Virus record (IMG/VR): IMGVR_UViG_3300034073_002206 | Coordinates: 1 to 41,896 of that record | Strand: one strand, 5' to 3' | Source of the DNA: a virus | Length of the DNA: 41,896 nucleotides | Shown: in pieces, positions 1-41,418 of the stretch | Layout of the letters: every line of letters starts with the position of its first letter | How positions within the stretch are numbered: position 1 is the stretch's first letter | Notes under the pieces: model-generated | What the model was told of the DNA's origin: nothing | The model's input: the letters and a program-made list of their open reading frames with translations, nothing else | The model's database searches: none | Program-made: the position numbers and the translations under genes

Positions 1-1724
1 TTTTTAGTATTGAAGAGGAAAGACTAAGTAGAAATAAATATGATGGCGGACCATTTGCTGCCATGATTAAAACAAAAGAATACACTGATAAAATAGATTA
101 CTTAGTAATATCACATACTCAAAGTTTGCAAGAAACTTGCGCTACAGTAGATTATACAGGTGATTTTGTATATAGTGGATTAGCCAGAAAATTAGGCCTA
201 ATCTCTAGTAAAGTCGACATTAGAAATCATCCACAAGTAATAGATTTTAGTCATCAGCATCATAAAATTCATGCCGCTGTTAGTTTTTATAGAAGTGGTT
301 TTGATGAGTGTGTAGCTGTTATTGTAGATGGGGCGGGTAGTAGTGTACGAGCACAGCATCGAGATGAATCTATTTTACTTTGGGAAGTAGAGTCTATATT
401 TGACTGTAGTTATCCTAATAATATTAAGACTGTTTATAAGCATTATGGATGTAGATCACCTATTATAAATAGTTATAATCCGCATGAAAACAGTGAGCGA
501 TTGCAGGAAACCGGTGAGCATGCAGTACTTATTAGTGGTCACGCAGGGATTACAAAAGTTTATGAGGCCGTAACCGAATATTGCGGGTTTAGTGCTATTG
601 AAGCCGGCAAAACTATGGGATTATTTCCCTATGGAAACCCTAACGATAAAATACCAAACTTATTTACTAAAATAGGCGAATTTAATATCAGCGACAGAAA
701 TGTAGTAATACCTACATATCCAAATAGTGCTATAGTTAATAGTATACTATATAATGAACTTGATACTAAATTTGGGTTTGATGATGCTACAAAGCTTCAA
801 AATCGTCGAGACTTGGCCTATAAAGTTCAACATGAAACGCAAGAACAAGTATTAAATCTTATACTTAAAGCAACAGAACTAACTGGTAAAAATAAAGTAG
901 TATTAAGCGGTGGATATGGACTTAATTGCGTTGCTAACTATTACTATTTAACAAAGTTAAATGAGTTAGGTATTGAACTATATGTAGAGCCTATTAGTAA
1001 CGACGGCGGAACAGCAATAGGTGTTGCTCTAATGTTCTATCATATGTTAGAAAACAGTTCAGAAAAACATCCACAAGAGATATACTTAGGACCACAATAT
1101 AATTATTCTAGTACAGATATTACTGATATTGCTGAAAAGTATAACGCAAGTATTGAACAATGTGATCATAATAAAGTAGTACAACTATTATGTAATAAAA
1201 ATATAGTTGCATTATTTCAAGGTCGTAGCGAGAATGGTCCACGAGCACTAGGCAATCGAAGCATATTATTTGACCCTAGATTTGAAGACGGCAAAGATTA
1301 TGTTAATCAAGTAAAACGCAGAGAGTATTTTAGGCCTTTTGCAGGTTCTATTCTTGAAGAAGATGTGCATGAGTGGTTTGATCTACGTGGCATGAATTCT
1401 AGCCCTCATATGATGTATGCAGTAAATTGTCAATCTGGTGTGGCAGAAAAGATTCCTAGTATAATTCACGTTGATGGAACTTGCCGTATACAAACGGTAA
1501 ACCGTAGTGAAAATGCAAACTACTACGACCTTATAAAATGTTTTAAGGATAAAACAGGAGTGCCCATAGTGTTTAATACAAGTTTTAATTTAGGTGGAGA
1601 ACCATTAGTAGAAACACTAGATGATGCATTACGTACACTTGCAGAAAGTGACATAGAATATTTATATTTACCAGAATACGAAACACTATTAACAATTAAA
1701 AATGACACTGAAAGATCTAACTAG
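1..1724 (+). CDS. Carbamoyltransferase (NodU/CmcH family), 5' end cut off by window
   Basis: The frame is open from base 3, and the residues before the first ATG (63) read FSIEEERLSRNKYDGG, the usual N-terminal region of this family, so the true start lies upstream of the window. About 573 residues are visible, close to full family length. A His-rich metal/active-site segment (SHQHHKIHAA) with a following VDG lies near 250-330. The C-terminal domain signature GRSENGPRALGNRS lies near 1222-1263. The family transfers a carbamoyl group from carbamoyl phosphate to hydroxyl groups of sugars or small molecules. Phage members are thought to modify nucleotides or glycans, but the substrate here cannot be told. 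The stop overlaps the heme oxygenase start by 23 nt, so it is transcribed with the bilin genes. Confidence 0.9.
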   Translation, partial: FSIEEERLSRNKYDGGPFAAMIKTKEYTDKIDYLVISHTQSLQETCATVDYTGDFVYSGLARKLGLISSKVDIRNHPQVIDFSHQHHKIHAAVSFYRSGFDECVAVIVDGAGSSVRAQHRDESILLWEVESIFDCSYPNNIKTVYKHYGCRSPIINSYNPHENSERLQETGEHAVLISGHAGITKVYEAVTEYCGFSAIEAGKTMGLFPYGNPNDKIPNLFTKIGEFNISDRNVVIPTYPNSAIVNSILYNELDTKFGFDDATKLQNRRDLAYKVQHETQEQVLNLILKATELTGKNKVVLSGGYGLNCVANYYYLTKLNELGIELYVEPISNDGGTAIGVALMFYHMLENSSEKHPQEIYLGPQYNYSSTDITDIAEKYNASIEQCDHNKVVQLLCNKNIVALFQGRSENGPRALGNRSILFDPRFEDGKDYVNQVKRREYFRPFAGSILEEDVHEWFDLRGMNSSPHMMYAVNCQSGVAEKIPSIIHVDGTCRIQTVNRSENANYYDLIKCFKDKTGVPIVFNTSFNLGGEPLVETLDDALRTLAESDIEYLYLPEYETLLTIKNDTERSN

Positions 1725-2220
1725 TGCTAAGCATAAGCTAGCAGAAGATCATAGATTTACAAAGTTACTATTAAGTGGCAAGATCTCCAAAGAGATCTAT
1801 GCCACATTTTTAGCGAACCAAATATACGTCTATGAAGTTTTAGAAGGTTGTGCCAAACACATAATTAATGATATTGTAGATATTAATCGCAGCAGTAAGA
1901 TTAAACAAGATTGGCAAGAATTAAAATGTGTAACTACTATACATAATTGTACTAGAGACTACTGCAGGTATATTCGAACACTAGATAATAACAAATTATT
2001 AGCGCATGTATACGTTAAGCATATGGGTGATATGTACGGTGGTCAAATTATTAAACGCTTGGTTCCAGGTAGTGGTACTATGTATGATTTTACGGACCGT
2101 CAAACAGCAATAAAGCAGCTTAGAGAAAAACTAGATATAACTATGGCTGATGAAGCCAATATAGCATTTGACTATGCACTACAACTACTTGATGCTATAG
2201 CAGATGAGTACAATATTTAA
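1702..2220 (+). CDS. ho: Heme oxygenase
   Basis: This 172-residue protein matches the compact core of canonical heme oxygenases, shorter than cyanobacterial HO1 (about 240). The proximal heme ligand is His11 in AKHKLAE. The distal-helix glycine motif GDMYGGQ is at 109-115, equivalent to GDLSGGQ of known enzymes. Family knowledge: it cleaves heme to biliverdin IXalpha, CO and iron, using reduced ferredoxin in cyanobacterial and phage examples. The next gene starts inside its 3' end and encodes a bilin reductase, so the pair should convert heme to a reduced bilin. A 12-bp hairpin followed by a T-run lies about 75 nt into the frame (1776-1810). The start at 1702 overlaps the carbamoyltransferase end. 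Confidence 0.93.
   Translation: MTLKDLTSAKHKLAEDHRFTKLLLSGKISKEIYATFLANQIYVYEVLEGCAKHIINDIVDINRSSKIKQDWQELKCVTTIHNCTRDYCRYIRTLDNNKLLAHVYVKHMGDMYGGQIIKRLVPGSGTMYDFTDRQTAIKQLREKLDITMADEANIAFDYALQLLDAIADEYNI
1776..1810 (+). terminator. Terminator-like hairpin inside the heme oxygenase gene
   Basis: TGGCA (1776-1780) plus AGATCTC (1781-1787), a CAAA loop, GAGATCT (1792-1798), one bulged A, then TGCCA (1800-1804), followed by CATTTTTAG. This gives 12 bp with one bulge and a run of five T. It lies 75-110 nt into the coding sequence. The shape fits an intrinsic terminator or attenuator; activity is inferred. Confidence 0.5.
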
Positions 2221-2863
2221 CCGATTAAAACAACACGAAAAAGCTCTAGAGGAAGTATTATTTTCTAGAGCTTTTTTATCGCCTGTGCCAAACACCTATA
2301 GCTGGACAAATAAAATTTTTACTAGCTCTAGCGTTAGACGTGCTCACTTAGACTGTATAGATGCTACTCAAACAAAAAAGTTGTATATGATGCACCTATG
2401 TATTTTTCCACAAGTTAATCTATCCAGTCCAATCTATGGGTTTGATATAATTGCTGGACCTAACAAAGTAACAGGTGCTTTCCTAGATTTTAGCCCTGTT
2501 GTTATAGGGCATCCGCTAAGTATGTGGTATGCTAATTTTGTAAAAGATTTAACATGGTCTAAACCTAGGCAGTTGCCAGAATGGGCTCAACGTATATTTA
2601 GTAAGAATATGATAGCTGCTGGTAATATTAATACTATAGAAGAATTAGATGTTATACTAGACTTAAGTTTAATAATGCTAAATAAATATTTAGACTTAAT
2701 GGGTAGTATAACCACTACAGAAGACTATACTAGTAACCAAAATTACTATTGCCAACAACAGAAATGCAATCCTCATACGCCTAGAGTTTTACAAAGTATA
2801 GGATTTGACCAGGAGATGGTGCATGACTTTATACATAACTGCTTATTTCCAGAAATTAATTAA
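2204..2863 (+). CDS. pcyX: Ferredoxin-dependent bilin reductase, PcyA/PcyX-like
   Basis: 219 residues. The core PIYGFDIIAG (76-85) with the following GAFLDFSP is the hallmark of the family. His64 and Asp81 are 17 residues apart, as are His88 and Asp105 of PcyA. The C-terminal motif QQQKCNPHTPRVL puts Asn189 where PcyA and PcyX have Asn and PebS has Asp. This favours a PcyA/PcyX-type enzyme over PebS. Family knowledge: it reduces biliverdin to phytobilins with ferredoxin electrons; PcyX is known from marine phage contigs and was reported to make phycoerythrobilin. Product assignment here is inference. The start (ATG 2204) overlaps the heme oxygenase stop by 17 nt. A perfect 13-bp hairpin with a T-tract lies within codons 12-25. 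Confidence 0.9.
   Translation: MSTIFNRLKQHEKALEEVLFSRAFLSPVPNTYSWTNKIFTSSSVRRAHLDCIDATQTKKLYMMHLCIFPQVNLSSPIYGFDIIAGPNKVTGAFLDFSPVVIGHPLSMWYANFVKDLTWSKPRQLPEWAQRIFSKNMIAAGNINTIEELDVILDLSLIMLNKYLDLMGSITTTEDYTSNQNYYCQQQKCNPHTPRVLQSIGFDQEMVHDFIHNCLFPEIN
2238..2278 (+). terminator. Perfect intrinsic-terminator structure inside the bilin reductase gene
   Basis: The left arm AAAAAGCTCTAGA (2238-2250) pairs perfectly over 13 bp with TCTAGAGCTTTTT (2264-2276) across a 13-nt loop. The right arm runs into a T-tract ending near 2277. It starts 34 nt after the reductase ATG. By shape it is as good as the genuine operon-end terminators of this window, yet it lies in coding sequence. Confidence 0.65.
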
Positions 2864-8452: not shown

Positions 8453-9901
8453 ATGCGTAAAATATTAGCCTTTTTAGTACTGCTCACAGCCACAAGTGTG
8501 TGGGCACAAAACACTAGTACACAGTCCACTACCAGCGGAACAACTACTAGCACTACAGACCTTATCAACCAAGGCAGCTATGATAGCAAAAGCCTTGTAG
8601 ATACTAACAGTACTAGCAATAGTACAAGCAGCGTTACTACTAACAATGTTAGTACTAGCACCAGTACTAATACTAATCTTAGCACCGTTAATAGCACTAG
8701 TACTAATACAAATAATAATGTAAATACTAGTACTGCTACTAGTACTAGTATTAATACTAATAATAATGTACAAAGTGGCACAGTTACTAATAATAACAAT
8801 AATGTTATGAGTGGAAGCGTAACCTACAACAATAATAATGTTAACAGCGGTACTCAAACATTTAATAACAATAACCTTAGCACGGCAACAAATAATAACA
8901 ATAATGTAAATACTAGCACAAGTACAAGTACTAGTGTTAATACTAATAATAATATTAATAGTGGCACAATGACTTATAACAATAATAATGCTAGTACGTC
9001 TACTAATATTAATACTAACAACAATATTAATAGTGGTACACAAACATTTAATAATAACAATATTTCTACTAGCGTTAGTACCAACACTAATAATTCAACT
9101 AGCATAAATACCAATAACAATATTAATACTGGTACAATGACCTATAACAATAATAATCTAAGTACGTCCACAAGTGTAAACACTAATAACAATATTAATA
9201 CTGGTACAATGACCTATAACAATAATAATAATAGTGCAAGTACATCAACGACTAATAATACAAATATGAATACTAATATTAGTACTAATTCTAGTGTTAA
9301 TCAAAATACTTCGTTAAGTACAAATACTAATAACAATATTCAAACCGGTGATATGACCAATCGTAATATTAATACCAGTGTTAGCAATAGCTCAGCAACT
9401 AATGTTAATCAAAATACTAATACCAGTACTAGTGATAGTACTAATCGTAATATTCAAACTGGTGATATGACTAATCGTAACATTAATGACACTACTATTA
9501 CACAAAAGGTTATCCAACCACCACCAACAGCAATTGCTCCAGCCATGATGAGTGGGGGTGGACAAGATCTTTGTACAACAGGCAGTAGCGGTGCTGTGCA
9601 AACACAAATAGTTGGTATGTCACTGGGTGGTACGCAACGTGATCTAAATTGCGAAAGACTAAAGCTTAGCAAAACACTATTTGATATGGGCATGAAGGTA
9701 GCTGCTGTGGCTACAATGTGTCAAGACAGACGAGTGTTTGAGGCTATGATGGCTGCTGGTACCCCCTGTCCATATGAAGGACAAATTGGTGAACGTGCCA
9801 AGGAATTATGGGCACAGAATCCTAACAAGATACCACAATATGATTATAGAACAGTAGCCGAAGTACCACAACCACACAAACCTATTAGTTGGTTTAGATG
9901 A
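8453..9901 (+). CDS. Exported Asn/Thr/Ser-rich repeat protein with Cys-containing C-terminal domain
   Basis: 482 residues with a clear signal peptide (cleavage after TSVWA, about 18). Residues 30-345 are almost only Asn, Thr, Ser, Ile, Val and Gly. They form degenerate repeats such as NTNNNINSGTMTYNNNN, ending in NIQTGDMTNRNIN units. Such Asn ladders suggest a beta-solenoid or amyloid-like fold. The last ~110 residues form a distinct compact domain with four Cys (LCTTGSSG, LNCERL, TMCQD, TPCP). It lacks the codon-level randomness expected of a spurious ORF and has a good RBS (AAGGAG). Function unknown. Position after lysis genes suggests an exported or virion-associated factor. Confidence 0.8.
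   Translation: MRKILAFLVLLTATSVWAQNTSTQSTTSGTTTSTTDLINQGSYDSKSLVDTNSTSNSTSSVTTNNVSTSTSTNTNLSTVNSTSTNTNNNVNTSTATSTSINTNNNVQSGTVTNNNNNVMSGSVTYNNNNVNSGTQTFNNNNLSTATNNNNNVNTSTSTSTSVNTNNNINSGTMTYNNNNASTSTNINTNNNINSGTQTFNNNNISTSVSTNTNNSTSINTNNNINTGTMTYNNNNLSTSTSVNTNNNINTGTMTYNNNNNSASTSTTNNTNMNTNISTNSSVNQNTSLSTNTNNNIQTGDMTNRNINTSVSNSSATNVNQNTNTSTSDSTNRNIQTGDMTNRNINDTTITQKVIQPPPTAIAPAMMSGGGQDLCTTGSSGAVQTQIVGMSLGGTQRDLNCERLKLSKTLFDMGMKVAAVATMCQDRRVFEAMMAAGTPCPYEGQIGERAKELWAQNPNKIPQYDYRTVAEVPQPHKPISWFR
8640..9480 (+). repeat. Degenerate in-frame tandem repeats encoding Asn ladders
   Basis: AAT/AAC, ACT and AGT codons dominate. The clearest copies begin at 9113 and 9185, 72 bp apart, and share a near-identical stretch of about 45 bp encoding NNNINTGTMTYNNN. 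Other units are more diverged. The repeats keep the reading frame throughout. Confidence 0.85.
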
Positions 9902-12321
9902 AAGATAGGTTAGTTAATTGGAGCATATTATTAGCACTAATGATTATAGCTATAATACCTGGTTTTGTACAAAGCCAGGTAGTTAGCGGCAGCACAAATA
10001 CTCCTAGTGGCTATAGTATTGATATGATTAGCGGCAACTTAATATCAAACGGATCGCTAACTAGCGGTACTGGTATTACAACAAATACTGGCAGTCCAAC
10101 CTGGGCAGCATATCCTAGTCCACAAGGTTCATTTGGTCCAGACGGTTATACGTTTAGTTACCCTACTGAATCACTAGGCTGGGCCGGCGTCAGTCTTAGC
10201 AGCATTAATCATGGATATTTAAATAGCAGTGCTGTATTTGTTACAGGATTTAATTATGGAGTTACATATCGTTTTCCTTGTGCTAATAGTATAGGTACGA
10301 ATTGCGATGGAACTAGTCAAACAGCAGCACCTGCTAATCCCACACAAGATAATTTACGAGTAGAAATAGGATATTATCCTGCAACAGGCAGTCCTACATT
10401 TATTACTCATCAGCTAGGGTTAAAAAATATAAATGATGGCAATAATTCCTATAATCCAACTTGGCAAACATTAGCACAAACATATACTTTTGCAGGAGCT
10501 AAACCCCTAAGCCAAGCTGGTGCAGTCAATATGGAAATTATTGGTAGCGACGCAGGTGGTTGGGCCTGTATAGGTATTGACTGTTATGGCCCACAAGTTA
10601 AAAATGCCTATCTCAGAGCAAACTATAGCGTAGATCCATGCATACTTAATCCAGCATACAATCCTAGCTGTCCAGGCTTTCAAAATGTCTTGCAGGGCAG
10701 TAAAAGTCCTGCTTTCTACTATAGTTATAACATTGCCCAATCACTACCACATATAGGTGGCGGTGTTATACTACACGGCTATGATTATGGATTTAATTGG
10801 TGGAACTATGGTGCTTGCTATAACACTTTCTTATTCTGGTGTACAGACTGGCGTACTGATGGCGGCGGTAATATAAACTTTAGAATAAGTGATAAAAATA
10901 ATGCCACCATGTTACAACAACAATGGTATGTAGCCGGTAATAATAGTGGTGGAGGTTATAGTAATAGATACCTATTTACTGAGTCACGCAATAGCCTAGA
11001 TATGGGTAATATACAATGGTGGACAGATAGTGTTTGGAATCACTTTGGTTGGTCGGGCTGGACTAGGCCTATATGGACTCCTGATCCTTGTTATACAAAT
11101 GGATTGTATAGCCCTAACTGTACTAACTTCAAGGAAACACTAGCTAAAACTATTGAAGATATTAAACTACAGCAGGAAAAGATTGCTGCATTAACACCAA
11201 CTATATCAAGCACAAGTACTACACCTGGTGGGTCGGTTACAATTACCGTTAGTGATGCCGCAACTACCAATCCAACTGTTGCTGTAACCACAACTACAGA
11301 GCAAAGTAGTAGAAGTGTTACTAGTACGCAGCTGCAAAACTCACAATCATTAGCTAGTAGTATTATAAGTCATAATGCTAGTGTTACTAATATGGCCGCT
11401 TCAGTTGCACAACGTGCAGTTAATGAGGCTAGTAGTGTGACTAGTGCATCTAGCCGAGAAGCTGAACAAGTTGCTGAAACTTTAACTAACTCAAGTATTG
11501 CTGCTAGTATAGACACTAAAGAATCTGATCAAGTAATAGCTGGATCTATAGCCGTTAATAGAACTGTTCAAACTAATGTTAATGCTCCGGCACCCGTCAG
11601 CATACAAACAACACAGCCGGCTAACACTCAGCAACGACAAGAACCACAGCAACAAACCAGCCAATTGGCAAGTATAACAGTAGAATCAGCAGCACAGCTA
11701 CTAGTGCCAAATGCTACGTTTAAGTCTATAGATCTAGTTGTAAATTTACCACCAACTAATAATTCTGCTAGGTTTATTCAAGAACAACCAGAATTTAGTT
11801 TTAAGGCACAAGAACAAACACAGCCTGTAAGCATGCCATTAGTTGCAGCACAATCGCAAACTAGTTACACTGCCGCAACTACTACAACTAATTTACCACA
11901 ACAATTACCAATTACCACTATAGACGTTGTTGCGCCAGTAGCCTATCAGCCAGCAATTAGTGCTGCTATAGAGATGGAACAGCCACAACAAACTAGAAAT
12001 TTTACTACTGATCGTACTAATCCAATTAACGATATTATAGAAGGTAGATCGCAGTTGGCTGAACAGCAAACTGAGCAACCAGCAACATCATCGGTTAATC
12101 GCAGTGCACAAAACAATGAAGCGGCTGATGGTGTAGATATTAATAATCTAGCTGTTATCCCAGTAGGATTTGCTAGCTATAATATTGCACTAAAAGATGT
12201 AGCGTTTTATCAGCCTAAAGAAATTTATCGTAATCAACGTACCATAGACAACAGGCGTGCGCTGCAAAATTTACGCAGTGATCAACTACACCAACAGATG
12301 ATTGATCAACAGTGGAGGTAA
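9898..12321 (+). CDS. Large exported protein with N-terminal beta domain, unknown function
   Basis: 807 residues, start overlapping the previous stop (ATGA). An N-terminal hydrophobic segment (about 9-27) is a signal peptide or anchor. Residues 30-250 look like a beta-sandwich of carbohydrate-binding type, rich in Gly, Trp and Tyr. Two copies of a Cys-paired linker follow: DPCILNPAYNPSCPGF near 247 and DPCYTNGLYSPNCTNF near 397. Between them lies a Trp-rich domain. From about 420 to 780 it is low-complexity, helical and Gln/Thr/Ser/Ala-rich. No catalytic motif is recognised. It is probably a secreted or virion-surface protein co-expressed with the repeat protein. Confidence 0.75.
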   Translation: MKDRLVNWSILLALMIIAIIPGFVQSQVVSGSTNTPSGYSIDMISGNLISNGSLTSGTGITTNTGSPTWAAYPSPQGSFGPDGYTFSYPTESLGWAGVSLSSINHGYLNSSAVFVTGFNYGVTYRFPCANSIGTNCDGTSQTAAPANPTQDNLRVEIGYYPATGSPTFITHQLGLKNINDGNNSYNPTWQTLAQTYTFAGAKPLSQAGAVNMEIIGSDAGGWACIGIDCYGPQVKNAYLRANYSVDPCILNPAYNPSCPGFQNVLQGSKSPAFYYSYNIAQSLPHIGGGVILHGYDYGFNWWNYGACYNTFLFWCTDWRTDGGGNINFRISDKNNATMLQQQWYVAGNNSGGGYSNRYLFTESRNSLDMGNIQWWTDSVWNHFGWSGWTRPIWTPDPCYTNGLYSPNCTNFKETLAKTIEDIKLQQEKIAALTPTISSTSTTPGGSVTITVSDAATTNPTVAVTTTTEQSSRSVTSTQLQNSQSLASSIISHNASVTNMAASVAQRAVNEASSVTSASSREAEQVAETLTNSSIAASIDTKESDQVIAGSIAVNRTVQTNVNAPAPVSIQTTQPANTQQRQEPQQQTSQLASITVESAAQLLVPNATFKSIDLVVNLPPTNNSARFIQEQPEFSFKAQEQTQPVSMPLVAAQSQTSYTAATTTTNLPQQLPITTIDVVAPVAYQPAISAAIEMEQPQQTRNFTTDRTNPINDIIEGRSQLAEQQTEQPATSSVNRSAQNNEAADGVDINNLAVIPVGFASYNIALKDVAFYQPKEIYRNQRTIDNRRALQNLRSDQLHQQMIDQQWR

Positions 12322-13613: not shown

Positions 13614-13822
13614 CACTGCTAACTCTACTTTTAGCAAGTTGTAGTGATATGTACCGCTATCCTTGCCAAAACCCAGATAACTGGGAACATAAAGTTTGTA
13701 AGCGACCCTACTGCAGTGCAAATGGTACTTGCCCAGAAGACTTAACACCCTATGAAAAAGACCGTGTAACAAACGGTAATAAACCTGCAACCTCTATTCA
13801 AGCACCAAAGGATTGTAAATGA
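13601..13822 (+). CDS. Small Cys-rich lipoprotein
   Basis: Starting at ATG 13601 gives 73 residues with signal MVRIALLTLLLASC, lipobox LLASC. The in-frame ATG at 13586 would add five residues and spoil the signal. The mature part has a Cys pattern YPCQNPDNWEHKVCKRPYC followed by NGTCPEDL, plus a last Cys near the C-terminus, probably forming disulfides in the periplasm. Similar short Cys-Asn-Pro lipoproteins seem to occur in other marine phages (from memory). The function is unknown. The stop overlaps the next start (ATGA). Confidence 0.7.
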   Translation: MVRIALLTLLLASCSDMYRYPCQNPDNWEHKVCKRPYCSANGTCPEDLTPYEKDRVTNGNKPATSIQAPKDCK

Positions 13823-14271
13823 TTAAAGACCTATGGGAAGGCCCACGCTATACCGAAGACGAGTTAATGGCTAGGCTGAAGTTTTTTATAGGTATGGTAC
13901 TAGCACTAACACTATTTGGTATCGTATTTGTAGTTCTCTACAGCTTAATATTCGTAACACAGCCAATGAACGGTATTAGTCCTGTAGATAATAAGTTTTT
14001 TGAATTGATCATTCCTATTGCTACTTTTTTAACCGGTACTCTTAGTGGTATTATGTTAGCTAGTGGTGACAAGGAAGCTCAAAAAGCAGCCCTACAAGCT
14101 GCAAACAAAGGTTGGGATAAGCCACCAAGCCCACCACCTATGTCTACACCTACAGTTACCCTAGGTAACAACGGTAGTATAAGCATAGCACCATCAACTG
14201 GTGGCGGCCAAGTAACTGTTGGGTTCGGCGGCAAAGCTGCTCCACCACAACAACCATTTCCAGAACTATAA
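13819..14271 (+). CDS. Two-helix membrane protein with Pro/Gly-rich tail
   Basis: 150 residues. The first membrane helix is about 22-46 (FFIGMVLALTLFGIVFVVLY). The second is about 66-84 (LIIPIATFLTGTLSGIMLAS). The N-terminus is charged and the C-terminal 55 residues are Gly/Pro/Ser/Thr-rich. Two helices with a short loop fit a class II holin topology, making this one candidate for the missing holin, but no family match is seen. It is translationally coupled to the lipoprotein. Confidence 0.7.
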   Translation: MIKDLWEGPRYTEDELMARLKFFIGMVLALTLFGIVFVVLYSLIFVTQPMNGISPVDNKFFELIIPIATFLTGTLSGIMLASGDKEAQKAALQAANKGWDKPPSPPPMSTPTVTLGNNGSISIAPSTGGGQVTVGFGGKAAPPQQPFPEL

Positions 14272-14609: not shown

Positions 14610-15293
14610 ATGGCCAAGAGCAGTGCTAAAAAATTACGCAGCGTACAACCTAATAATGTTGTTCCCCTGGAAATAGGCTTTGAAAATGTAAAACCATTAA
14701 ATTATATTCAAGGCGAATATTTACGGGCCATTCATGAAAATAGTATAATCTTTGGTATAGGTAGCGCAGGCACTGGTAAAACCTATATTGCAGCAACATA
14801 TGCGGCAGGTGAATTATTTCACCGCCGCATTAAAAAGATTATATTAACAAGACCTAATGTAGAAACTGGACGTGGACTTGGCTTCCTACCAGGTACACTA
14901 GAGGAAAAATACGCTCCATACCTAGAACCATTTGATCAAATCTTTAGCAATAGTCTAGGACGCGGATTCTACGAGTATGCACTAAATAAAAATCAAATAA
15001 TACCTAAACCGCTGGGATTTATGCGTGGAACTACTTTTGATGATTGCATAGTATTACTCGACGAAGCACAAAACGCTACTAGGGATGAGATGAAAATGAT
15101 CTTGTCACGCATTGGAAAAAACTGTAAAATAATAATTAGCGGAGATTATGAGCAAAGCGACATTCACAACAGCGGACTCCTAGACGCCAGTACCAGATTA
15201 GAACATATTGAAGGTATTGAAGTTGTTAGGTTTCGTGATGAAGATATTGTACGCAGCAAGCTATGTAAACAAATAATTTTAGCATATAAATAG
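14610..15293 (+). CDS. phoH: PhoH-like P-loop ATPase
   Basis: 227 residues, the size of the ATPase core. Walker A is GSAGTGKT (51-58). The family-specific LTRPNVETGRGLGFLPG follows, then Walker B with DEAQNA, and the sensor-like IISGDYEQ. PhoH proteins are widespread in marine phages of many hosts. They are predicted ATPases, possibly RNA helicases linked to phosphate stress or RNA turnover, but the phage role is unsettled. RBS AGGAA precedes the ATG. The next gene, a small membrane protein, starts 12 nt downstream. Confidence 0.93.
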   Translation: MAKSSAKKLRSVQPNNVVPLEIGFENVKPLNYIQGEYLRAIHENSIIFGIGSAGTGKTYIAATYAAGELFHRRIKKIILTRPNVETGRGLGFLPGTLEEKYAPYLEPFDQIFSNSLGRGFYEYALNKNQIIPKPLGFMRGTTFDDCIVLLDEAQNATRDEMKMILSRIGKNCKIIISGDYEQSDIHNSGLLDASTRLEHIEGIEVVRFRDEDIVRSKLCKQIILAYK

Positions 15294-16720: not shown

Positions 16721-17356
16721 ATGGCTAAAACATATAAACCAACAAGTGGCATGGCCAGTGCCGCTAGGCGAGCATTAAAGTGGAAAAGCGAAGGAAAGGC
16801 TGGTGGCACACTTGTTGGCTTAGCTAGAGCTAATCAACTAAAAGATCGTGATCCGCTGAGTGCGAATGTAGTGCTAAGAATGTACAGCTTTTTTAGTCGC
16901 CATGAAGTAGATAAAAAAGCCACAGGATTTTATAGCGGCCAAGAAGGGTTTCCTAGTAAAGGTCGCGTAGCCTGGGATCTTTGGGGCGGCGACGGCGGCT
17001 ATAGCTGGAGTAGTGCTAAGCGCAATCAAATTATGCGTGATCGTGAAGGTAAAGCACTGCAGTTAGTTAGGCTAGCACAAAAAGGCATTATAGCAAAACC
17101 ACTGCGTATGGTAGCTGCACAGGTAATTGAAAACTATGCCAATGATAATATCAGCGAAGACCTAGAAGCATTTGGTCAGTTTATGTACCATGCCGAATTA
17201 TTACGCAATGACCACCTAGATGTATACTTAATGGATCTACATCTAGTAGAGCAACCATATCGCGATATACTAATAGATATATTTAGCGAACTAGATAACA
17301 TGGACGATGACCATACTATTGACGATGAAGATAGCAATCTAGATACACCCCTATAA
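16721..17356 (+). CDS. Conserved phage protein with SxxFxRHEVD / WGGDGG domain
   Basis: 211 residues. Residues 5-110 form a basic domain with motifs GGTLVGLARANQL, RMYSFFSRHEVDKK and VAWDLWGGDGGYSW. This pattern recurs in phage proteins near head or DNA-handling genes and sometimes fused to other domains. Its biochemical role is not known to me. Residues 110-190 are helical and the C-terminus is strongly acidic (DDDHTIDDEDSN). RBS AGGAG. It is the last gene of the + operon, ending just before the bidirectional terminator. Confidence 0.7.
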   Translation: MAKTYKPTSGMASAARRALKWKSEGKAGGTLVGLARANQLKDRDPLSANVVLRMYSFFSRHEVDKKATGFYSGQEGFPSKGRVAWDLWGGDGGYSWSSAKRNQIMRDREGKALQLVRLAQKGIIAKPLRMVAAQVIENYANDNISEDLEAFGQFMYHAELLRNDHLDVYLMDLHLVEQPYRDILIDIFSELDNMDDDHTIDDEDSNLDTPL

Positions 17357-17359
17357 AAC

Positions 17360-17388
17360 AAAAAAGCCCGCTATAAGCGGGCTTTTTT
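17360..17388. terminator. Bidirectional terminator between convergent operons
   Basis: AAAAAAGCCCGC (17360-17371), loop TATAA, GCGGGCTTTTTT (17377-17388). The GC core with A-tract and T-tract on opposite sides makes it work on both strands. It closes the + late operon and the - nucleotide-metabolism operon. Confidence 0.95.
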
Positions 17389-17389
17389 G

Positions 17390-17605
17390 TTATTTAACAA
17401 CTTCTAAATTTGGCTGAGCCGTGTCATTAAAATCGTCTTGTTCAGATTTATTTAATTTCTCTAGCTGATTATTAGCCTGTAACTGAATCTCTCTACTTAA
17501 AGGATTACATATTTTAGCAGGTAGTTCCTGCAAGCCTAGTAGAATATTATTTATTTGATTTACGTTTAATGTTAAGGTTAATTCTGTTTTTTCTGGATCA
17601 ATCAT
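17390..17605 (-). CDS. Small hypothetical protein, coupled to RNR
   Basis: ATG at 17605 overlaps the RNR stop (ATGA), giving 71 residues (MIDPEKTELTLTLNVNQ...). The upstream in-frame ATG at 17617 lies inside the RNR end and is less likely. The sequence is beta then alpha: a short strand (ELTLTLNVN) followed by an amphipathic helix (QINNILLGLQELPAK). The tail is Asn/Gln/Asp-rich. This MIDP...LGLQELP layout recurs in small phage proteins, but no function is known to me. Confidence 0.7.
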   Translation of the reverse strand: MIDPEKTELTLTLNVNQINNILLGLQELPAKICNPLSREIQLQANNQLEKLNKSEQDDFNDTAQPNLEVVK

Positions 17606-24507: not shown

Positions 24508-24542
24508 AAAAAGAATGGCCCAGTAACCGAAATTACTGGGCC
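24508..24542 (-). terminator. Intrinsic terminator after the SSB gene
   Basis: GGCCCAGTAA and TTACTGGGCC pair perfectly over 10 bp (24517-24526 with 24533-24542) around a 6-nt loop. On the - strand the stem is followed by ATTCTTTTT. It lies between the SSB stop (24548) and the sbcD ATG (24498). Confidence 0.9.
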
Positions 24543-25590: not shown

Positions 25591-26895
25591 CTATACCGAT
25601 ATAGTTTCCCAGCCCTTTTTCATATACAGGCCTAGCCTATCAGTATTCTGCTTTTTATCTGCCCAACCACTAAATTGAATATCTACTACTATTGGATCAG
25701 GTTTACCTGGATGTGGTCGCATTATTCGGCCAACAATTTGTTCTAGTAAACTGTCATTACTCATTGGTACTGCTAGGATAACGCAGCTGAGTATGTTGAT
25801 TGAGATTCCTTCACTGAAGATTTGGCGGCTACCAGCAATGCACATTTTTGCTTTGCTGAGGATTTGTTCTTTAGCATATTGCCGCTCTTCAAAGCTGGTG
25901 TCGCCAGTAACCAACAAACACGTTTCTCCAACATATTCTTTTACTTTCTCCAAAAATTCAACACGATCGGCTACAACAAGCACACTATGTCCATGTTGTA
26001 TATGATAAGTAGCAAGTGCACTGATATAACGTCTATAGTATTCACTTTGCGTTAGCTCATTAATCTTTTCTACCCAGGGAACATTATGCTTTAGTGCAAT
26101 ATTACTTTTTACTAGATGTACCAGTGGATTAATAGTATTAGCTTGTTCGGGCTTAAATACGGTAGTTCCAAAGTAATCTTGAAACAGCACATGCTTGCCA
26201 TCTTTACGTTGCATAGTACCACTAAGTGCTAGCCTATACCTGCTGTGAAAGCTGTCTATAGTTTGACTAAAAGTTGTAGCAGGACAATGATGTGCTTCGT
26301 CTAAAATAATAGTACCGAACTCTTTATTTATCTTAGCTAAGTTTTTTACTATACTCTGCACATTGCCAACTACAATAAAGTGATCTTCTATGTCAAAATT
26401 ACCGCCGCCTATAACACCAGGACTAATACCAAATAGCGCTTCAATCTCCTCATACCACTGATCACGTAGTGCTGTAGTATGAGTTACTACTAATGTTTTT
26501 TGTCCCCACTTACGTGCGATATGTAAGGCAGTAAATGTCTTGCCCCAGCCTACTAGTGCATTGATAAAGCAAGTATCTGTAACCTGATCGTATACTTCTT
26601 GCTGATCTGGTCGCAGTGCATATCTAGCTGTAGGAAACGGTACAGGATTAACTAAGCGTTTATCTACTACGTTATAGCCTTCTGGTATTAGATCAGTGCG
26701 ACCCTGCGGCACACTAAGCATACCACCACTAAAGCTTTTATAGTTTTTAATGGTTTCTACACTAACAAACTTCTTTGACCCAGTATTTTTATGGATTTTA
26801 TAAGTAAGTGTGTTCATAATAAATTTACTAGCAGCACTACCTGGATTGTCCATGTAGATTCTGTTGCTAATAATAGCTTTCACACTTTTCTCCAA
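25591..26895 (-). CDS. SF2 DNA/RNA helicase (UvsW-like)
   Basis: 434 residues. Q-like region YALRPDQQEVYDQV, Walker A LVGWGKT (Gly-Trp-Gly-Lys-Thr, slightly unusual), motif Ia VVTHTTALRDQW, motif II LDEAHH, motif III ALSGT, motif VI IVGRIMRPHPGK. The N-terminal ~110 residues are a basic DNA-binding region. T4 UvsW-type helicases unwind branched recombination intermediates and R-loops, clearing origins and promoting fork regression. Start overlaps the end of the preceding gene by 16 nt. Confidence 0.9.
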   Translation of the reverse strand: MEKSVKAIISNRIYMDNPGSAASKFIMNTLTYKIHKNTGSKKFVSVETIKNYKSFSGGMLSVPQGRTDLIPEGYNVVDKRLVNPVPFPTARYALRPDQQEVYDQVTDTCFINALVGWGKTFTALHIARKWGQKTLVVTHTTALRDQWYEEIEALFGISPGVIGGGNFDIEDHFIVVGNVQSIVKNLAKINKEFGTIILDEAHHCPATTFSQTIDSFHSRYRLALSGTMQRKDGKHVLFQDYFGTTVFKPEQANTINPLVHLVKSNIALKHNVPWVEKINELTQSEYYRRYISALATYHIQHGHSVLVVADRVEFLEKVKEYVGETCLLVTGDTSFEERQYAKEQILSKAKMCIAGSRQIFSEGISINILSCVILAVPMSNDSLLEQIVGRIMRPHPGKPDPIVVDIQFSGWADKKQNTDRLGLYMKKGWETISV

Positions 26896-31257: not shown

Positions 31258-32637
31258 TTATGCATCCCAAGGTAAGTCTGCACTAGCATCATCTTGTTTT
31301 AAGTTCTTTTTGCCAGCTTTTTTAATTGTTTCTTTTTCTTGCGGTTTATCTATACTTTGTGGACTAATTCTTAATGTTTCCCAATCGATCGGACTGGTAA
31401 ATTTCATCTCTTTTCCGCCACGAATTTTAGTAGTTTCAAAACTAATAGCATTGCTACTCTTATCATGCGCTTCCATTACTAGTGCTATATCAGCGGCATC
31501 TAATATACCTTTAGCAAAGCGTGCTTCACCAGTTGCGTCAATTTGATAGGGACTTACTAAGACAACTTCATACTTTCTAGCTAAGTTCTTTAATTTCTTT
31601 GACACCTCAATTTGAGGCTTCCAGTCGTACATATCAGCGCCTTCAATAACAATTTGATTTAAATAGTCTACTACTACAACCTGCAACTTATCACCAAATT
31701 TAGCTTTTGCTTTGCCAATGTGTAGGTCAATACTGCTAATAGTTAAGTCTCTGTCATCAACAATAATCATTTGATTGTTTGGTTTTAGTTGATGATTTCG
31801 CACTAGCGCTTCCTCAAATTTAAATCTGTCACGATGACGTAAGAAGTCTAGTACTGTTTGATCAGCTTCCAAAAACATACCTGCTCTAGCTTTTACTACT
31901 TTTAGTACTTCGTCATCAGTTAATTTATTCTGCTTTAGTCGTTGTAGGTCTACGTTTGCTAATATGCTGAGATTTCGTTCCATGACTTCATATGCTGTCA
32001 TTTCTATAGAGAAATATATTGAGCTATTCCCATTCTCATACTGATTAATAAAAATATTACTGCTAGTAATACTTTTACCGCTACCTCGCTTTCCGCCGAT
32101 GAGTATGAGTTCTTGTCTAGCCACACCACCAAGAACAGCATCAAAAGTATTATTAAGTCCCAAATAAACACGTTCTTTATCCAAGTCGTCTGGGTGGCGG
32201 AATAACATCATATCAGCCATAGTAAATACTTTTTCACTGGTATGCGTCTTTTCCTCTATAGTCATAGCTATAGTAGATAGGTTTTCTTTTATTTCATTAG
32301 TGTCGTAAAGTGGCAGTTTATCTACAAATTTATCTAGTAGTTTTACAGTTTCGTTTTGTGTATATTGATCTATTAATGCATCTAGTGCAATTTCTGCACT
32401 AACATCTGGCACTTCCGTTAAGCGGAGAGTGGCTAACGTCTTAGACGCTGGACCCTCCCTTATGGTTAATGCTAAATCGTCAAAACTAGGTACACTGTGG
32501 TACTTTTCGTAATGTTTATTGATTGCACTGTAAAGAGAGCTGTACGCAGGGTCTAAAAATACTAGTTTGAGTCTAGCCCATAATTCTAGGTTTTGCTCTG
32601 CTAGTAGTTTATTTAAGACTACTGCACTTGTATCCAA
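31258..32637 (-). CDS. Replicative DNA helicase, DnaB-like
   Basis: 459 residues. An N-terminal ~130-residue helical domain is followed by the RecA-fold ATPase: Walker A GKRGSGKS (182-189), ENGNSSIYFSIEMT (DnaB motif H1a-type), Walker B VVVDYLNQI, and KSSNAISFETTKIRGG near the C-terminus with an arginine finger region. A Lys-rich linker and acidic tail (DDASADLPWDA) end the protein. It would form the hexameric fork helicase working with the adjacent primase and the family A polymerase. Confidence 0.92.
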   Translation of the reverse strand: MDTSAVVLNKLLAEQNLELWARLKLVFLDPAYSSLYSAINKHYEKYHSVPSFDDLALTIREGPASKTLATLRLTEVPDVSAEIALDALIDQYTQNETVKLLDKFVDKLPLYDTNEIKENLSTIAMTIEEKTHTSEKVFTMADMMLFRHPDDLDKERVYLGLNNTFDAVLGGVARQELILIGGKRGSGKSITSSNIFINQYENGNSSIYFSIEMTAYEVMERNLSILANVDLQRLKQNKLTDDEVLKVVKARAGMFLEADQTVLDFLRHRDRFKFEEALVRNHQLKPNNQMIIVDDRDLTISSIDLHIGKAKAKFGDKLQVVVVDYLNQIVIEGADMYDWKPQIEVSKKLKNLARKYEVVLVSPYQIDATGEARFAKGILDAADIALVMEAHDKSSNAISFETTKIRGGKEMKFTSPIDWETLRISPQSIDKPQEKETIKKAGKKNLKQDDASADLPWDA

Positions 32638-32950: not shown

Positions 32951-32987
32951 GTAGAAAAGGCCGGGAGCATTTTACCTCTCCCGGCCT
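32951..32987 (-). terminator. Intrinsic terminator after the HTH-repeat gene
   Basis: AGGCCGGGAG and CTCCCGGCCT form a perfect 10-bp GC-rich stem (32958-32967 with 32978-32987), loop 10 nt. On the - strand the stem is followed by TTTTCTACTTTTAG. It precedes the helicase-primase genes, for which no closer promoter is visible. Confidence 0.88.
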
Positions 32988-38589: not shown

Positions 38590-38602
38590 TATAATTTTTT
38601 TA

Positions 38603-38630
38603 CAACAAAAAACCCAGCCTAAGCTGGGTT
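38603..38630 (-). terminator. Intrinsic terminator after the tRNA cluster
   Basis: AACCCAGC and GCTGGGTT (38611-38618 with 38623-38630), 4-nt loop. On the - strand it is followed by TTTTGTTG. Only 8 bases separate it from the 3' end of the tRNA gene. Confidence 0.88.
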
Positions 38631-38638
38631 GTGTTGTT

Positions 38639-38717
<79 letters not shown>

Positions 38718-38730
38718 AATAAACTATCGG

Positions 38731-39303
38731 CTAGGTAGCTTGGTCTCCAGTGAAGTTGCCGTTCTGGAAACCAACAGTACCACCTTGTGCTTCTATTCTT
38801 GCATAAAGATCTTCTAGCGTGATTGGAGCAAAGTCTAGACACTCTACGCTGACATTGTAGTACCTTGGGTCAACGTCTCCGTTAAGTTTCACTCGGTTAG
38901 CGTGAAGATGTCCGTGAACATTACAACCAAACCTAGCAAGACTTTCGGGATGGATGGGCACGTGACTAAAGATAATACCGTTAAGCACGTGATATCCACG
39001 GATGTCATCGAAGTATTTAGAGTAATCTTCAAGTTTAAAGATATCGTGATTGCCTTTGATCAGTACCTTGCGTCCGTTGAGCCTGCCAAGTTGGCTGAGA
39101 AACTTTCTGTTGATTACAACATCACCAAGGTAATAAACTCGGTCGTTCCGGCCAACTCGTTCGTTGTTACGGGCGATCATAGCTTCGTCCATTTCCTCTG
39201 CACTGGCAAAGGGACGGAGAGGTGAGCCATCTTCACGCCGAAACACCGTACAGGTTTTCTCGTGTCCAAAGTGTTGATCTGACCAAATCCAAGTTGCTGA
39301 CAT
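38731..39303 (-). CDS. Calcineurin-like metallophosphoesterase
   Basis: 190 residues. Motifs in order: SDQHFGH (Asp, His metal ligands, about 8-14), YLGDVV, KGNHDI, FSHVP and GHLH. This is the small single-domain phosphoesterase type seen in phages and bacteria, acting on phosphomonoesters or cyclic phosphodiesters. The substrate is unknown. Codon use is visibly richer in G and C than that of its neighbours. It lies with two other genes between two near-identical tRNA genes, hinting at acquisition as a unit. Confidence 0.88.
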   Translation of the reverse strand: MSATWIWSDQHFGHEKTCTVFRREDGSPLRPFASAEEMDEAMIARNNERVGRNDRVYYLGDVVINRKFLSQLGRLNGRKVLIKGNHDIFKLEDYSKYFDDIRGYHVLNGIIFSHVPIHPESLARFGCNVHGHLHANRVKLNGDVDPRYYNVSVECLDFAPITLEDLYARIEAQGGTVGFQNGNFTGDQAT

Positions 39304-39632
39304 TAAAACATCCTTTTATGCTTCGTCAGAAAGCGTTCTGCTACTACACGCCACCGCTGCTGTACGGGTACAGGAGCGTGACTACTTCTGTAGTGTAGCA
39401 CAGAAAACACCTTGTGTAAATAGTTTCGGTTATTCCAAGCAAATCTGGGTAGCCAATTATACTGTCCACGTGGTGTCATATGCCGTAGCTGATATCGAAC
39501 TAAGAAGTCCTGCGGACGGAATTTTTTAGTCTTGTTTGGGCCGTCCTCCCAGAGTCCTTCGTGTTTGAGTATGGTTCCGTCTAAGTCAATAAACCAAGTA
39601 TGTGCTAATGTTGAAAGTTCAAATGGTATCAT
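39303..39632 (-). CDS. HAD motif I protein, short
   Basis: 109 residues. FIDLDGTILKHEGLWEDG (about 14-31) is a clear HAD-superfamily motif I (DxDGT), but no motif II, III or IV follows. The rest is rich in Arg, Trp, Tyr and His (RPQDFLVRYQLRHMTPRGQY). Full HAD phosphatases need about 200 residues. So it is either a truncated HAD protein, a minimal phosphatase-like fold, or an unrelated protein with a mimic. It touches its neighbours on both sides. Confidence 0.6.
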   Translation of the reverse strand: MIPFELSTLAHTWFIDLDGTILKHEGLWEDGPNKTKKFRPQDFLVRYQLRHMTPRGQYNWLPRFAWNNRNYLHKVFSVLHYRSSHAPVPVQQRWRVVAERFLTKHKRMF

Positions 39633-39997
39633 TTGTTAAAATAGAGTTTAAATAAATTGTCAATTAAAACCATACAACTTATCCAAACCCATAGTGTGTT
39701 AAACCCAACTAGTGTTGGTAGTAATTTTTTATTGCTAGCCCAAATTAAAGTAAGACTGGTGACAAGTGTAAAGAAAAATAACCACCAAACTTGAATACCA
39801 AATATAAGACCTGGTACAATTATTACTGCCTTGGTTATCCAACTAACGAACTCGACTATATTGTAGTTTGTCCAATATTTACGGTTGAACCACATATGGT
39901 AACACTTAAGTATATTAGTCCATCCTGTTAAGGAATACACAATACCTGACAGTAGTGCCCAACTAATAGTTGCTATAATTATCTGTTCTATTGTCAT
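39629..39997 (-). CDS. Multi-spanning membrane protein
   Basis: ATG 39997 gives 122 residues (MTIEQIIIATISWALL); an upstream in-frame ATG at 40036 lies inside the tRNA. About four hydrophobic segments: 4-22, 50-70 (VIIVPGLIFGIQVWWLFF), 70-85 and 98-117. Aromatic-rich. No family recognised. It is the first gene of the tRNA-bracketed cassette. Confidence 0.65.
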   Translation of the reverse strand: MTIEQIIIATISWALLSGIVYSLTGWTNILKCYHMWFNRKYWTNYNIVEFVSWITKAVIIVPGLIFGIQVWWLFFFTLVTSLTLIWASNKKLLPTLVGFNTLWVWISCMVLIDNLFKLYFNK

Positions 39998-40002
39998 AAA
40001 AT

Positions 40003-40081
<79 letters not shown>

Positions 40082-40082
40082 A

Positions 40083-40157
40083 TGGTACTCAATAACAGAT
40101 TCGAACTGCTGACCCTGGCCGTGTAAAGGCCACGCTCTACCACTGAGCTAATTGAGT
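40083..40157 (-). tRNA. tRNA-Val (UAC)
   Basis: 75 nt with encoded CCA. Acceptor ACTCAAT/ATTGAGT, discriminator A, anticodon arm TGGCC-TTTACAC-GGCCA giving anticodon UAC, T arm CAGTT CGAAT region intact. It reads GUA, a common Val codon in the phage genes. Confidence 0.92.
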
Positions 40158-40163
40158 ATCTAT

Positions 40164-40670
40164 TTAAACCATTATTTTGCTTACTGCAACTATTACACTA
40201 CTAATACGGCCAATATCTCGCAATTGTTCTACACTATAGCCAGCTTTGCGTAGTGTATCATAGTGTGCTTTTACACAAAATTCGCATTTACCTACTATAC
40301 TAGCTGCTAAACTATAGGCCTCAAATTTATCTTTAGTAGTTCCGGCATGGGTACTAATAGCGTTCATACGTAGTTGAGCAGGTAAGTTTTTTAGCTGAAT
40401 ATCTTTGCTCATTTCTATATATGGATACCAAACATTATTCATAGCCATGAGACTAGCTGCTGTAATAGCTGCTTCAGCCTCTTTACTATCCGTCATCTCA
40501 CTATGAATCCAAGTCCACATTTTATGTTGTCCAGTTGCAAAAGCTGCAGCCAGTGCTACATACTCTGCTGTTTCTCCTAGTATACTACGTTTAATAGTAG
40601 TATCTAAATTTAGCTTAATATCCTTGGCATAGTCTGGAATTTCTTTTTTAAGGTCGTCTACCCACTGCAT
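40164..40670 (-). CDS. ahpD: AhpD-like alkylhydroperoxidase
   Basis: ATG 40670 shares its A with the ahpC stop (TAATG), giving 168 residues. The active site matches Mycobacterium AhpD with a one-residue shift: Glu117, Cys129-x-x-Cys132 (CEFC) and His136, with residue spacing preserved. Family knowledge: AhpD reduces AhpC, receiving electrons from lipoylated dihydrolipoamide succinyltransferase. Being coupled to an AhpC gene, it completes a self-contained peroxidase pair needing only host lipoamide. Full length; no truncation seen. Confidence 0.93.
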   Translation of the reverse strand: MQWVDDLKKEIPDYAKDIKLNLDTTIKRSILGETAEYVALAAAFATGQHKMWTWIHSEMTDSKEAEAAITAASLMAMNNVWYPYIEMSKDIQLKNLPAQLRMNAISTHAGTTKDKFEAYSLAASIVGKCEFCVKAHYDTLRKAGYSVEQLRDIGRISSVIVAVSKIMV

Positions 40671-41248
40671 TAGAGTGTACTTCCACCTACTGTGCGATTG
40701 CAAGCACAAAGTTCACCAGTTTGTAGTGCATCTAAGATACGCAGTGTTTCTTCTGGGCTGCGACCAACATTAAGGTTATTTACTGTAACATGCTGAATAA
40801 CATTATCAGGATCAACAATAAATGTAGCACGCAGTGCTGCACCTGCTGGCACATAAAACACACCTAGCTGTTCAATTAAGCTAAGGTTTTTAAATCCAAT
40901 GCCAAATGCATCTTCTTCTGACCACTCATTGCTTCTACGCTGTGTATCAGCAAATTGAATGTGTTTGATCTTAGCCAAGTCCTCATGACTACGCTGCCAA
41001 GCAAGTTTGCAAAATTCGTTGTCTGTGCTGCCTGTTAAGAGTACAGCGTCACGATCCGCAAAATCGTCAAAGAGTTTGTCGTATGCTACGATTTCTGTGG
41101 GGCATACAAACGTAAAATCTTTGGGGTAATATACAATTATCTTCCACTTACCTGGAAAGCTAGTTTCAGTAATATCAAAAAATTGATCACTGCCTGGGTT
41201 AATGCCAGTTACTGAGAATGGTTTTAATTTATCGCCTACTGTTTTCAT
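40670..41248 (-). CDS. ahpC: AhpC-type 2-Cys peroxiredoxin
   Basis: ATG 41248 after AAGGATATT gives 192 residues; the longer frame runs into a tRNA. Peroxidatic Cys49 is in PKDFTFVCPTE. The C-terminal LCACN carries Cys181 and Cys183, the three-Cys pattern of Mycobacterium-type AhpC (61, 174, 176), the kind that is paired with AhpD rather than AhpF. It reduces hydrogen peroxide, organic peroxides or peroxynitrite in the cytoplasm. It lies between tRNA-Gly and tRNA-Val. Confidence 0.95.
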   Translation of the reverse strand: MKTVGDKLKPFSVTGINPGSDQFFDITETSFPGKWKIIVYYPKDFTFVCPTEIVAYDKLFDDFADRDAVLLTGSTDNEFCKLAWQRSHEDLAKIKHIQFADTQRRSNEWSEEDAFGIGFKNLSLIEQLGVFYVPAGAALRATFIVDPDNVIQHVTVNNLNVGRSPEETLRILDALQTGELCACNRTVGGSTL

Positions 41249-41265
41249 AATATCCTTGTGTTGTG

Positions 41266-41341
41266 TGGAGCGGCAAATCGGAGTCGAACCGACAACATCC
41301 TGCTTGGAAGGCAGGTGCTCTACCAATTGAGCTATTGCCGC
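41266..41341 (-). tRNA. tRNA-Gly (UCC)
   Basis: 76 nt with encoded CCA. Acceptor GCGGCAA/TTTGCCGC region with discriminator U (typical of Gly), anticodon arm CCTGC-CTTCCAA-GCAGG, T loop TTCGACT. It reads GGA, frequent in the phage genes. Confidence 0.92.
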
Positions 41342-41342
41342 G

Positions 41343-41418
41343 TGGAGCGGGTGATGGGACTCGAACCCACGACATCAACCTTGGCAAGGTTGCACTCTAT
41401 CAGCTGAGTTACGCCCGC
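41343..41418 (-). tRNA. tRNA-Gly (GCC)
   Basis: 76 nt with encoded CCA. Acceptor GCGGGCG with ACCCGC partner (one wobble), discriminator U, anticodon arm CAACC-TTGCCAA-GGTTG, T loop TTCGAGT. One base separates it from the tRNA-Gly(UCC) gene. Confidence 0.92.

Follow-up and report, generated by a model that had tools for sequence, protein, structure and literature searches.

A terminator placed behind an Escherichia coli gene was found to be nearly silent a few nucleotides after the stop codon, to show intermediate and sequence-dependent efficiencies (0.12 to 0.8) at 17-18 nt past the stop, and to work fully beyond about 27-30 nt from it, and uncoupling translation restored its activity (Li et al., PMC4824070). 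In the same work, translation cut the efficiency of a terminator located 30 nt after the AUG by only about 10%, and terminators up to 100 nt into a coding region retained most of their efficiency. Here we analyze a 41.9-kb linear virus record (the window) in which a terminator-like hairpin lies inside the 5' end of pcyX, the gene for a putative ferredoxin-dependent bilin reductase, directly behind the stop codon of the heme oxygenase gene ho.

The pcyX element resembles intrinsic terminators in that a G-C closed stem is followed directly by a T-run and in that its score falls within the range of the phage's own intergenic terminators, but it differs from them in lying inside the next gene, near the 5' end of its coding sequence, and in being conserved with covariation across phages. 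With pyrBI-type translation-coupled attenuators (PMC4824070) it shares a stop-to-terminator distance that would allow a closely following ribosome to block the pcyX terminator, although the stop codon concerned ends a full enzyme gene, ho, rather than a leader peptide, no metabolite or codon signal is evident, and no conserved competing hairpin was noticed for pcyX. As with the premature termination described inside E. coli ORFs (PMC7815308) and with coding-region terminators (PMC4824070), a putative 3'-end-forming element is found inside an ORF; those cases were mapped or built in bacteria, whereas the pcyX element is an evolutionarily maintained candidate that belongs to viral auxiliary metabolic genes. 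Published work on pcyX makes no mention of terminators (PMC11480375; open literature), and no paper on phage bilin genes with such elements was found in the open-access literature.

Gene arrangement and hairpin structures

The carbamoyltransferase, ho and pcyX genes form a head-to-tail series in which neighbours overlap, and a tail-fibre gene comes next (Table 1). The pcyX start codon precedes the ho stop codon, resulting in a 17-nt overlap, and this start is kept in relatives.

Table 1. Features of the window and their coordinates.
Feature	Position	Strand	Remarks
NodU-like carbamoyltransferase	3-1724		stop ends at 1724; 3' end overlaps ho start
ho, heme oxygenase CDS, 172 aa	1702-2220	+	Pfam Heme_oxygenase PF01126, 1.4e-19
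ho hairpin, +74 to +110 of ho	1775-1811	+	13-bp stem 1775-1805, bulged A at 1799, then A and TTTTT (1807-1811)
pcyX, ferredoxin-dependent bilin reductase CDS, 219 aa	2204-2863	+	Pfam Fe_bilin_red PF05996, 7.7e-22
ho stop codon TAA	2218-2220	+	first pcyX stem base 17 nt downstream
pcyX hairpin	2238-2276	+	arms 2238-2250 and 2264-2276; conserved and covarying in relatives
G-C closed core of pcyX hairpin, +40 to +68 of pcyX	2243-2271	+
pcyX T-tract TTTTTT	2272-2277	+	codons Phe24-Leu25
ORF with strong hairpin near start	9898-12321	+	no clear T-tract
ORF with strong hairpin near start	13819-14271	+	no clear T-tract
ORF with strong hairpin near start	14610-15293	+	no clear T-tract
Near-perfect bidirectional terminator	17352-17396		+ and - gene blocks converge; scored at 17359-17389
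Intergenic terminator	24517-24542		in - block; scored at 24542-24517
ORF with strong hairpin near start	25591-26895	-	no clear T-tract
ORF with strong hairpin near start	31258-32637	-	no clear T-tract
Intergenic terminator	32959-32986		in - block; scored at 32986-32959
Intergenic terminator	about 38600-38628		in - block
tRNA genes, five	38639-41418	-	two are Met (CAT)

Hairpins had been predicted on the coding strand in the 5' coding region of both genes, and both are present, with small coordinate errors only in the original prediction. The ho hairpin, GTGGCAAGATCTC-CAAA-GAGATCT-A-TGCCAC followed by ATTTTTA, is 13 bp long and not 12 bp from 1776 as first described, and has a dG of -19.6 (-18.1 for its G-C closed core). 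The pcyX hairpin, formed by AAAAAGCTCTAGA and TCTAGAGCTTTTT, is the perfect 13-bp stem with T-tract that had been described (dG -19.8). Among 45-nt windows of both strands, the two hairpins are near the top in stability. According to a terminator score of the d'Aubenton Carafa type, the pcyX hairpin reaches 20.5, compared with 8.5-31 for the three intergenic terminators scored, and the ho hairpin about 0 (0.1), a borderline value, with an A intervening before its five T. Both structures have terminator-like form, but they are not the equal pair that had been proposed, as the ho hairpin lies at the terminator threshold.

An Rfam search of the window returned five tRNAs above the gathering score and no other family, with neither hairpin matched. 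A terminator scan skips both, because by its rule the pcyX loop has 13 unpaired nt (limit 8) and the ho stem is bulged. Hairpins were counted with stem finders, since local-window folding merges neighbouring structures and overlooks both sites.

Excess over synonymous-codon permutations

As a null model, synonymous codons were permuted within genes; a sense hairpin was counted if it had a folding energy of -12 kcal/mol or lower, a closing G-C pair and a T-tract behind it. Four such hairpins were observed in all CDSs of the window versus 0.36 expected, and two of them, those of ho and pcyX, lie within the first 120 nt of genes, where 0.11 were expected, in agreement with the excess stability over codon-shuffled sequence that had been anticipated. 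The ho hairpin was reached in none of 3000 permutations and is the strongest outlier of the window; when 2472 windows of 60 nt were scanned separately, no other site had a z as extreme as its -6.5. Taken by itself, the pcyX hairpin stands out only modestly, being reached in 86 of 3000 permutations (about 3%), because the codons for Lys-Ala...Arg-Ala-Phe favour AAAGC/GCTTT pairing; the strength of its case as a putative RNA element derives from relatives. Strong hairpins without a clear T-tract (z -4 to -5.4) were also observed within about 230 nt of the starts of five other ORFs (Table 1).

The pcyX hairpin among relatives

Searches of viral contigs with pcyX yielded 109 loci (L numbers below), from which 74 distinct loci were counted. 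In these loci, which were gathered via pcyX similarity and share ancestry, so that the counts are not independent events, the first 150 nt of pcyX contained 39 terminator-like hairpins versus 7.1 expected, and the first 150 nt of ho contained 9 versus 1.2. The remaining + strand genes in these loci were near background (22 versus 14.3 in the first 150 nt; 67 versus 61 further inside).

The pcyX hairpins are confined to one clade (support 98/87), whose proteins share 50-75% identity with PcyX of the window. A GC-closed hairpin with a T-tract and a terminator score above 0 was found in 36 of its 39 representatives, compared with 1.9 expected from synonymous-codon permutation, with scores such as 10.7 (L013) and 22.4 (L085) and core dG values from -11 to -29. 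In nearly all, five or more of the 8 nt that follow the core are T, and in all 36 the T-tract is placed precisely where the G-C core ends. The hairpin has been lost in three lineages of the clade (the L014 group, L038 and L070), and no such hairpin was found in ho-pcyX cassettes outside it, including that of the cultured Pelagibacter phage Mosig, implying that it is dispensable for cassette function. Homologues from cultured pelagiphages and cyanophages likewise had no such terminator.

The 3' end of the hairpin and the T-tract are common to all (codons 23-24, +68 to +70 of pcyX), and the 5' arm occurs in three registers (A, B and C), starting near +38, +30 or +28. Both the window's group and L040 have register A; L040 is placed among register B and C sequences, and supported tree branches force the conclusion that register A arose at least twice. 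Pairing survives double changes, and some of these replace an amino acid: GCTCTAGA/TCTAGAGC of the window is replaced by GCCTTAGA/TCTAAGGC in L002 and L003, with Arg22 changed to Lys, and AAAAGCTC/GAGCTTTT by AAAGGCCC/GGGCCTTT in L096, L106 and L109. Paired cells amounted to 97.6% in a set of 22 sequences (5 double-changed pairs; 31-55% with slid partners), 97.1% in a set of 5 (3 double-changed pairs) and 92.9% in a set of 9 (2 double-changed pairs), with slid-partner controls at 31-66% over all three sets; for the smallest register C set, shuffled controls were not separable from the observed values.

The pcyX pairings include 27 G-U cells but 6 A-C cells, which favours a structure in the sense RNA. 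An antisense terminator was considered and rejected, as the antisense score was above 0 in only 22 of the 36 hairpins and the sense score in all of them. A conserved protein-binding hairpin was also rejected as the main idea, because the loop sequences are not conserved. By these comparisons the pcyX hairpin is a conserved element, predicted to act in the sense-strand RNA. The conservation with compensatory change that had been named as a test is found in pcyX (36/39, double changes); the ho hairpin is patchy, covaries weakly and is absent from L001-L003, the window's three closest pcyX relatives.

Within the hairpin clade, residues K9, A23 and F24 of PcyX are invariant or nearly so, whereas they are variable (2.4-2.8 bits) in relatives without the hairpin. 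The Ala23 codon is always GCT or GCC in the clade, never GCA or GCG; at other Ala positions GCA is the commonest codon, and GCA and GCG together account for about half.

The ho hairpin among relatives

A related hairpin occurs at the same ho site in L009, L085 and L086, with weaker forms in L004, L070 and L097, and strong forms are limited to a part of one ho clade. In some sequences the tip consists of different pairs that encode other amino acids (CTC/GAG, ACC/GGT, GTT/AAC). With all 11 sequences included, 81% of cells are paired; shuffled controls often reach the observed covariation. Strong hairpins elsewhere in the 5' part of ho are common, with z below -2 in 37% of 67 loci, compared with 4.5% in the middle of the gene. 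The ho hairpin is real, but as a putative terminator it is not firmly conserved.

Several other features of ho were observed among these loci. L014, L015 and L022, of a lineage that lost the pcyX hairpin, have a very strong hairpin at +41 to +90 of ho (-24 to -26 kcal/mol, z -5.5 to -7.8); a rule of one hairpin per cassette, in either ho or pcyX, was rejected because L038 has neither. A recurrent hairpin without T-tract is located at about +125 of ho, around ACTGGAAACAGT, in L012, L013, L016, L024, L026 and L095. In L062, L063, L066 and L069, the 5' parts of pcyX are nearly identical and the adjacent ho genes differ clearly, suggestive of a replacement of ho, and in L053 and L055 a gene resembling 2OG-Fe(II) oxygenases replaces ho directly upstream of pcyX.

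Proposed mechanism and alternative explanations

We favor, with moderate confidence, a joint reading in which the pcyX hairpin is a conserved intrinsic terminator that throttles pcyX, with an efficiency that probably depends on translation through the ribosome on ho. Termination, its strength and its coupling to ho translation are inferred from structure, excess, conservation, covariation, orientation and position. An intrinsic (Rho-independent) terminator on the sense strand, in codons 12-25 of pcyX and directly behind the ho stop, would end a share of transcripts after ho, so that ho would be expressed above pcyX and the downstream genes. Its efficiency would probably be set by translation: a ribosome finishing ho close behind the RNA polymerase would cover the stem base and let transcription proceed into pcyX, and when the ho message is untranslated or slowly translated the transcript would end at the pcyX hairpin. 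The ho hairpin may be a second, borderline element of the same kind, and as it is located 50 nt past the carbamoyltransferase stop it would be little affected by ribosomes.

The gap between the ho stop and the pcyX stem is 2-4 nt in most of register B, 7-11 nt in most of register C and 16 nt in register A, that of the window (16-17 nt to the stem and 22 nt to the G-C core). These gaps of 2-16 nt are within the published reach of a ribosome, whose threshold of about 27 nt was obtained in E. coli and may not be that of the host (PMC4824070), making the ribosome that finishes ho the likely governor. The window's own gap, however, falls where efficiencies from 0.12 to 0.8 were measured (PMC4824070), which counts against the proposal. 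The original prediction had instead a ribosome translating the same gene melt each hairpin, which is unlikely given the loss of only about 10% measured 30 nt past an AUG (PMC4824070); a ribosome initiating pcyX itself would probably come too late to block folding. Translation-coupled attenuation, as originally suggested, therefore agrees with the form and position of the element but not with the ribosome proposed for it, and the analogy with PMC4824070 points to the upstream one on ho. Inspection by eye revealed neither a conserved competing antiterminator pairing nor a leader peptide with a regulatory codon run, so regulation would rest on ribosome position alone. In register B the 5' arm GCTCAT is complementary to the start ATGAGY, a pairing that register A, L096 and L106 do not allow.

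The main rival, which we regard as rather unlikely, is a fixed leaky terminator that would set the ho : pcyX : downstream ratio independently of translation or host state. Terminator form and conservation fit it too, a terminator near the start of a coding region (first 100 nt) keeps most of its efficiency (PMC4824070), and the register A gap (16-22 nt) would permit substantial termination despite a ribosome at the ho stop. What speaks against it are registers B and C, whose stems lie 2-11 nt from the ho stop, where repression by the ribosome was almost full (PMC4824070), so that some translation dependence is expected there.

An RNA 3'-end or processing element, which would block 3' exonucleases or provide a nuclease site and let ho mRNA outlive pcyX mRNA without termination, seems improbable: it would account for a sense-strand structure selected without a conserved loop sequence, but has no need of a T-tract exactly at the core end in 36 of 36 hairpins. 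Still less probable is a translational role, in which a hairpin past the overlapping start codon would pause ribosomes or aid re-initiation at pcyX. The hairpin does lie just past the stretch that an initiating ribosome covers, and structure in the first 60 nt is below expectation (z +1.9), but the T-tract is left unexplained and the 5' arm shifts by 12 nt among registers while the end of the T-tract stays fixed. Coding constraint, chance or palindrome-making mutation without selection is the least credible account of the pcyX hairpin, since, although 86 of 3000 codon permutations reach the window's hairpin and template switches that create hairpins are a known type of mutation, it faces 36 of 39 against 1.9 expected, the double changes, the three registers and the background level of other genes; it is more serious for the ho hairpin, which is patchy and weakly covarying.

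Significance

Transcriptional control of phage auxiliary metabolic genes is, to our knowledge, barely known. Our results suggest that in a family of uncultured phages carrying ho and pcyX the transcription of pcyX is throttled at the gene junction, and a covarying hairpin whose position with respect to the preceding stop codon is fixed provides a testable candidate for how a phage may set the ratio of the two enzymes of a pathway. The hairpin is also a case of RNA structure that shapes the N-terminal protein sequence of an enzyme. More tentatively, and with some doubt, the junction may be a translation-gated switch in which the ribosome finishing ho licenses pcyX transcription and the hairpin dictates K9, A23 and F24 of PcyX. 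If so, the phage would make the second enzyme only while the first is being translated.
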